From positions 1 through 32,990 of the forward strand of contig JADGEI010000029.1 of assembly GCA_016744455.1 (NCBI GenBank): 32,990 bases of DNA. Reading direction: 5' to 3'. The position numbers and the translations under genes were made by a program. Positions 592-1,416 of the stretch are shown here, in pieces; within the stretch, counting starts at the first letter, position 1, and the number at the start of each line of letters is the position of its first letter. Under the pieces are notes generated by a model. It was not told the origin of the DNA and ran no database searches. It saw nothing but the letters and a program-made list of their open reading frames with translations. This stretch comes from Alcanivoracaceae bacterium. GTDB taxonomy: Bacteria; Pseudomonadota; Gammaproteobacteria; Xanthomonadales; Marinicellaceae.

Positions 592-1416
592 CTACTGTCC
601 GCCTCTTACCAATCGGACATAACCGCTATTGCCACGATAACCGCTGCCATCACTGCCGTAACCGAAGTACAAACCCCACGCACTGTCCGAGCTACCAGCA
701 TCGGGAGAAGAACTCCAAAACCAGCTTGATACAGTATTGGGGAAATAGTTTGCGTCAATTGCTGGGTTGACTTTGCCTTGGTGTACTATTGAATGTAGCT
801 CATTTATATCTGGTACACGCCAATCAGTTTGACCACATAGACTCTGAGTGTTTACCCTTGCTGCAAAGGCTTGTGTATTGCAAAAGGTTGAACTATCAGC
901 TACATTGTAACCTGAACAAATTGGTCCATCATCATCGGCATAACCATCAGCGCCACCGTTGGTAGCTGAATCAGTGTTATACCAGTTGTATGTATCATCT
1001 TTGTCATGAAACCCTCCATCATCGGTCTTAACCTCCCAAACCAGGCCTGTGACATTGTCTTGCACGCATGACCAAGGCGTTGTGTCATAATCATCAGCTT
1101 GATTAGCTATTGGCATACCATTGTCATCTAACTTGGTAAAACTAAAGCCGGCATGGCCATCATCGTCACTGTTTGTTAATGGGTTTGCATCACGCCCTTG
1201 GTTGCAATCTTGTGGTGAGGTGTTAGTACCAGTGATAGTGCAATTTACATTGTTACCTGATGCATATTTACCCGCCCATGTGATACCGGTGTCATTGAGT
1301 TTGACTAATGGAATAACTATTTTCTCAAACCCATTGTTAAAAATAGGCTGTGCTGATACGGTAGCGCAAAGGCTAATTATTAGTATTGATAAAACTGCTA
1401 AAGATTTAGTTTTCAT
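592..1416 (-). CDS. Secreted DUF1566 (Lcl-type) protein, DGR variable target
   Basis: This 274-residue protein has an N-terminal signal peptide (KTKS basic start, hydrophobic stretch, likely cut after VSA at about residue 22). The middle carries the DUF1566 hallmarks DNVTGLVWEVKTDDGG (about 121-136) and a CGQTDWRVPDINEL motif (about 194-207). The C-terminal part is a C-type-lectin-like variable region ending in VRLVRGGQ. Residues 250-266 are encoded by 17 consecutive codons that all end in T or C (GGY, AGY, GAY, TAY, AAY, CGY, TTC). Every one can be derived from AAY by changing adenines only, the footprint of DGR mutagenesis. The protein is probably exported and binds ligands through this hypervariable face. 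A GGA 8 bases before the ATG and a promoter at 1441-1470 support expression. Confidence 0.88.
   Translation of the reverse strand: MKTKSLAVLSILIISLCATVSAQPIFNNGFEKIVIPLVKLNDTGITWAGKYASGNNVNCTITGTNTSPQDCNQGRDANPLTNSDDDGHAGFSFTKLDDNGMPIANQADDYDTTPWSCVQDNVTGLVWEVKTDDGGFHDKDDTYNWYNTDSATNGGADGYADDDGPICSGYNVADSSTFCNTQAFAARVNTQSLCGQTDWRVPDINELHSIVHQGKVNPAIDANYFPNTVSSWFWSSSPDAGSSDSAWGLYFGYGSDGSGYRGNSGYVRLVRGGQ
601..705 (-). other. Variable repeat (VR) of the DGR target
   Basis: On the coding strand the stretch before the invariant VRLVRGGQ tail is dominated by NNY codons, with TGG, GCG, TTG and TCG interspersed as invariant-looking anchors. Sites decoding to G, S, D, Y, N, R and F fit adenine-substituted AAY template codons. 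The 3' boundary would be the conserved stretch coding for RLVRGG at 601-615, which resembles the position of an IMH site. The exact VR limits cannot be fixed without the template repeat, which is absent here. Confidence 0.7.

Follow-up and report, generated by a model that had tools for sequence, protein, structure and literature searches.

We found that the gene at positions 592 to 1416 of the window (the whole of contig C3, 32,990 bases, from a 3.62-Mb genome in 47 contigs labelled here as G000) is almost certainly one of two targets of a diversity-generating retroelement (DGR), the cassette of which was most likely split by an insertion sequence (IS) and is spread over two contigs, C3 and C40. 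The left end of C3 carried, on the minus strand, target gene A and then avd; in the same genome, C40 carried the template (TR), then a DGR-type reverse transcriptase (RT), and then a second target with its own variable region, VR-B. The assembly broke in the IS, which left the two halves on different contigs; on the chromosome they most likely run targetA(VR-A)-avd-[IS]-leader-TR-RT-targetB(VR-B), on a single strand. For this element the template, the A-restricted differences in both variable regions, the DGR-type RT and the Avd were all established, as was a matching gene order in a congener, there on one contig. The cassette may be active at present, its product may be surface located, and ligand binding may be its use. 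The element is a DGR of known kind, and the lineage of its RT and the split two-target layout mark it out as a variant. The features of the window that belong to the cassette or to its broken edge are as follows.

1–96: end of a multicopy insertion sequence at the contig edge, common to seven contig ends (C3 included); its other end is likely the last ~95 bases of C40
97–101: likely 5-base target-site duplication TATTA, with the partner TAATA on C40
209–556, minus strand: avd, 115 aa (PHROG 3206 "Avd protein of DGR", 5.7e-18; Pfam bAvd, 3e-8, under the cut-off)
592–1416, minus strand: target gene A, an ORF of 274 aa with an Lcl_C/DUF1566 domain at residues 117–271 (Pfam PF07603, 1.2e-33, over the cut-off)
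595–597, minus strand: last codon, CAG against AAG in the template; the VR/TR difference at the 3' boundary and a candidate IMH/IMH* discriminator (six VRs, four genomes)
598–723, minus strand: VR-A core, 126 b; template counterpart at C40:616355-616480 (-); codons 232–273 of target A
616–669, minus strand: NNY run of 18 codons (250–267), by codon count
1351–1416, minus strand: probable signal peptide (residues 1–22 of target A), as read from the sequence

The analysis started from an earlier note, which had proposed an adenine-mutagenesis footprint and thus a DGR variable region in a DUF1566 target, a reading now supported by the TR, the RT and the Avd. A search of the whole genome for RTs gave two places, and the one on C40 was directly preceded by an ORF ending in WFWSSSPNANNSNNAWKLNFNNGNDNNNNRNNNNYVRLVRGGK. 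When VR-A was compared with this template, 27 of the 126 positions differed, and all 27 lay at a template A (23 A>G and 4 A>T). The TR holds 47 A in its 126 bases, and chance was excluded as the reason why every VR-A mismatch fell on a template A (hypergeometric P 4e-15). VR-B showed 25 differences from the TR, 24 of them at a template A. When every A of the TR was masked as N and up to three mismatches were allowed, the whole genome gave three matches, namely VR-A (0 mismatches), the TR itself (0) and VR-B (1), and the reversed pattern used as a control gave none; a protein search of the genome with target A likewise led to three places, with none further at E 0.001. The template-like copy differing only at A, which the note had set as a test, was thus present on C40.

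The variable region is located at the 3' end of target A within the Lcl_C domain, a domain of C-type-lectin type according to PMC6642488. The limits had been given as 592–720, and the template comparison placed the core at 598–723. Codons 250–266 of the minus-strand ORF were indeed all NNY; the run extended to 18 codons, was followed by the VRLVRGG end that the note describes, and was the longest in the window (17 stop-to-stop frames with 150 codons or more), the next reaching 14. All 17 codons had been read as reachable from AAY by adenine changes, which is not right in one detail: the template has AAY at 12 of them, and codons 251 (TTC), 254 (GGC), 256 (GAT), 261 (CGT) and 266 (TAT) are identical in the template and VR-A. 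The hexamer GGACAG was found at the 3' boundary in six VRs (A and B of G000, A and B of the congener G006, A of G010, and that of G175), and the corresponding templates read GGAAAG, GGAGAG, GGCCAG and GGAGAG; G134 differed. In BPP-1 a hairpin follows the VR; after VR-A there were A/T inverted repeats only (the longest of 12 nt, 83%, at 559–589) and no GC-rich hairpin. As a separate observation, three large secreted-looking proteins of G000 were recorded as ending in F.NGFE, with L060:6527-12211 and L007:7554-9560 named alongside window 592–1416; target A carries PIFNNGFE directly after its signal peptide and not F.NGFE at its end. Two short words near the cassette, ccccgccttcgcgaggatgac (167–196; similar words on many contigs) and cacgctctgcgtgggaatgag (1530–1560), had the look of dispersed repeats.

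The gap of 35 bases between target A and the next ORF (556–209) was as claimed, and the Avd-like nature of that ORF was borne out by its PHROG match, with sub-cut-off scores against Pfam bAvd (34.6 bits, cut-off 40) and NCBIfam (35.8 bits, cut-off 80). All 22 aligned members (the window's and 21 viral ones of the 24 found) matched bAvd at E 0.001. A profile comparison with the Avd of BPP-1 by hhalign gave a probability of 1.3%, and no match was found in PDB. A protein search of the genome at E 0.001 gave this single avd and no further copies.

The RT on C40 starts 2 bases after the TR core, comprises 571 aa, and carries the motifs IGNLTSQ, of the form (I/V/L)GxxxSQ, and YVDD. In PDB it matched best to the 8ub7 series (3.8e-28), which carries the name "Reverse transcriptase" and which we take to be the RT of the Bordetella phage DGR. 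A tree of 19 rows joined it to 15 further SQ-motif RTs in a group of 16 rows (88/88), apart from two group II RTs; the rows, plasmid ones among them, were taken as DGR-type on the strength of search hits. The predicted presence of a DGR-clade RT elsewhere in the genome was thereby verified. The second RT of the genome (C22; L001:883-2634, 583 aa) shows VGSALSD and FKDD at the usual motif places and is not DGR-type; it fell outside the SQ-motif group on a very long branch, so its placement is unsure. Both the G000 RT gene (L007:14638-16353) and that of G006 (L040:8428-10443) contained in-frame inserts resembling dispersed repeats, at about residues 403–465 in the former and about 122–247 and 590–640 in the latter. 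As the TR abuts the RT, the 5' end of the RT gene was also considered as a priming spacer, and this was rejected, there being no excess codon identity in codons 1–25: among codons for the same amino acid in G006 and G010, 13/21 were identical there, and 16/20, 17/23, 21/25 and 14/18 in the later blocks.

Beyond residue ~335 the RT of G000 has about 236 further residues, which are homologous to C-terminal extensions in its relatives. With the G006 extension as the query, three of 369 genomes of the class matched, namely G000, G134 and G175 (G006 itself was evidently outside the draw), and the four RTs, all with the extension, formed one group (93/93; the program's own mark 95). The C-terminus of the G134 RT is MutS domain I (Pfam PF01624, 6.5e-12, 46.1 bits, cut-off 20.6) and showed 31% identity to residues 15–102 of E. 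coli MutS (2e-8, 2000-letter database). The extension of G175 scored under the cut-off (16.7 bits, 0.0086), those of G000 and G006 gave no Pfam match at all at E 10, and no other MutS domains were seen in these RTs. Compared with MutS domain I, the homologous region of G000 is split, reordered and undetected by Pfam alone. In BLAST of the C-termini against each other (2000-letter database), residues 155–241 of the G000 C-terminus aligned to 56–143 of that of G175 (1.4e-12) and residues 158–242 to that of G134 (1.5e-4); residues 49–65 aligned to 192–208 of G175 (59% identity, E 0.002), with a weaker echo of this second block in G006 (0.04). The two blocks are thus in swapped order in G000 compared with G175, and G006 keeps the order of G175 and G134. 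The G000 C-terminus has likely been circularly permuted next to a repeat that was inserted, although this falls short of proof because the second block is short; the order in G000 looks derived, since an RT remnant in another genus of the family (G019) ends like the G006 RT. The G006 extension matched nothing in plasmids or phages and that of G000 nothing in plasmids, and the whole G134 RT was covered to 80% by none of 2774 plasmid and none of 148 phage records.

A yAyTGTG motif lay 97–150 bases before the TR in all five loci compared, and the five leaders had four distinct closing-stem sequences, one being shared by G006 and G010. Folded singly, they gave z-scores of −1.20 (G000, no more stable than expected by chance, 25 of 200 shuffles being as good), −3.93, −3.22, −2.41 and −1.98. 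The RNAalifold consensus over the five contained no pairs, the G175 piece having been taken from wrong coordinates, and Rfam gave no matches in the five loci. Within 450 bases after avd the motif occurred in none of 22 viral loci (24 found), with 0.93 expected by chance. A folded leader, made up of yAyTGTG and a closing stem of changing sequence, is put forward as a lead only.

The listings and passages of the literature that we consulted contained no DGR RT fused to a MutS domain. In PMC12875486, mutS was deleted in the E. coli host to help retain DGR substitutions, and no effect of MutS was found in the insertion-repair assay of that study. We tentatively suggest, as an idea that probably will not hold in full, a DGR lineage in which a mismatch-recognition module borne by the RT (MutS domain I) might hold the A-mismatched cDNA/target heteroduplex or shield it from host mismatch repair, and which would have its own folded template-RNA leader. 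If true, mutagenic homing and mismatch handling would be combined within one enzyme, and this RT lineage would bear on the survival of mismatched cDNA against repair during homing.

The relatives provided both intact and decayed versions of the cassette. In the congener G006, targetA-avd-TR-RT-targetB was found on one contig (L040:6939-10958), with 18/19 and 23/24 VR differences at A. A short contig of G010 carried targetA-avd-TR and the RT start in the same order, with 22/26 differences at A; its target A has a nonsense codon where the VR begins. Both DUF1566 targets were kept in G019 (L093:1639-3285, G019:C1), but the TR and most of the RT were gone, and avd was fused to the last codons of the RT through a 5-base repeat, a relic of deletion. 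In G134 and G175, avd, TR and target lie beside the RT; 21/24 differences were at A in G134 (139 columns, some flank included), and 19/20 in G175, where the alignment needs a 1-base gap in the VR and gives 22/48 when ungapped. Among 61 genomes, our own included, the RT query matched four (our own, G006, G010 and, weakly and with a stop, G051), and the avd query also four (our own, G006, G010 and G019). The genes next to the cassette are presumably, for G000, oad-like in the window and VPS10-like on C40, and otherwise valS-like and pepA-like in G006, FHA-like in G010, and cmoA/cmoB-like in G019. No match to target, avd or RT was found around pepA in G000, G004, G009 and G010 or around oadB in G002, G007 and G010. 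These differing neighbors, together with the pepA and oadB stretches that lack the cassette, suggest that it moved or was gained and lost repeatedly. The ends of an empty site were not definable, as flanking gene order was too little conserved.

By the homing chemistry established for DGRs, the RT and Avd would reverse-transcribe the TR RNA, placing random bases opposite each A, and the resulting cDNA would replace the 3'-terminal VR of either target, so that a secreted protein could have up to 17 AAY codons changed in a domain of C-type-lectin type. Whether this still happens in G000 has to be weighed against a recent death of the element, in which the A-only footprint would be kept while the rearranged RT with its inserted repeat, or the IS, has stopped the cassette. 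The RT could be impaired, given the repeat and the apparent rearrangement in its C-terminal part; avd is cut off from TR-RT by the IS, which counts against a working cassette; and relatives have decayed, through the nonsense codon in G010 and the TR-RT deletion in G019. DGRs with broken RTs, one of them broken by insertion elements, that have VRs with A changes only are described in PMC3521204. However, the reading frame is kept through the RT core with its motifs, the G006 RT likewise has in-frame inserts, VR-A has no non-A change, and nothing divides leader, TR and RT, with the IS end 397 bases ahead of the TR. We therefore regard a dead cassette as possible but not probable.

A local VR-A inside a two-target cassette, split by the IS between avd and TR, is most likely because both contigs break off within ends of a multicopy element, with flanks that match as a 5-base duplication, and because G006 has the order on one contig. 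The last ~95 bases of C40 are common to five contig ends, C40 included, and the outer bases GCAAAGGTCTC and GCAAAGATCTC resemble imperfect terminal repeats of one element. When the 5-base duplications were paired, four of the five right ends matched exactly one left end each, C40 with C3, and C20 was without a partner; at 4 bases the C40 flank also fits C43. Random 5-mers from those flanks gave 0.06 matches per 35 pairs, but with TAnnA words on both sides (5 by 5), as suits the AT-rich flanks, at least four matches arose in 5% of trials, and gene order is the stronger argument for adjacency. Taken together, these results strongly indicated that C3 adjoins C40. It is quite unlikely that the contigs lie far apart and that VR-A is a true remote (trans) target on which the RT acts at a distance: they are separate contigs, the repeat at both ends has several partners, and multi-VR DGRs are common (271/948 in PMC6642488), yet avd-TR-RT is contiguous in G006 and G010 and is echoed by the G019 remnant, the two contigs break off at the same place, between avd and TR, and one 5-base flank match joins C40 to C3. 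An IS inside a DGR cassette can thus lead a draft assembly to present a local target as a remote one. The interior of the IS and its transposase were not found; among 41 genomes two matched it, our own included, with four loci in G005. Immediately ahead of the TR leader is an element of ~160 bases (L007:16707-16865) that has short inverted ends (GAGACCTTTGCATAA). Related copies are at C40:48492-48650 (86%) and C26:18469-18628 (71%), and the element may be related to the splitting IS as a non-autonomous form.

That VR-A is a codon-biased Gly/Ser/Tyr-rich loop without any retroelement, its NNY run being chance or a simple repeat, would suit a gene with 61% NNY in its first 229 codons and a window with other runs of up to 14, but this is refuted by the TR/VR comparison and by the masked-template search with its empty control, and the presence of a DGR-type RT and Avd leaves it a negligible probability.

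Compared with the DGR of BPP-1 (mtd-avd-TR-brt, NC_005357), the cassette of G000 has the same target-avd-TR-RT order on one strand, an SQ-motif RT and an Avd-type helper, and VR/TR differences are A-specific in both. However, BPP-1 is a phage and the G000 cassette lies on a chromosomal contig; G000 has a second target after the RT, its target is Lcl_C, its TR-to-RT gap is 2 bases against 144, and its RT has 571 aa with a C-terminal extension against 328. DGRs with several VRs, and targets of the DUF1566 type, are well known (PMC3521204 and PMC6642488); as there, one TR serves two paralogous DUF1566 targets, but in G000 the targets flank avd-TR-RT on both sides. PMC6642488 gives DUF1566 as the commonest Pfam domain among DGR targets and assigns it a C-type-lectin fold. 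The G000 RT is longer than the 260–527 aa of DGR RTs in PMC3521204 and than the candidate detection window of 250–550 aa in PMC8144416; such cassettes may be under-counted, because RTs of 571 and 671 aa exceed that window. The G006 cassette shares with G000 both the targetA-avd-TR-RT-targetB order and the C-terminal RT modules, but has no IS between avd and TR, and its RT shares 55% identity with that of G000 (309 columns). What began as a visible pattern in one gene has led to a full retroelement with its template, its enzyme and two targets.
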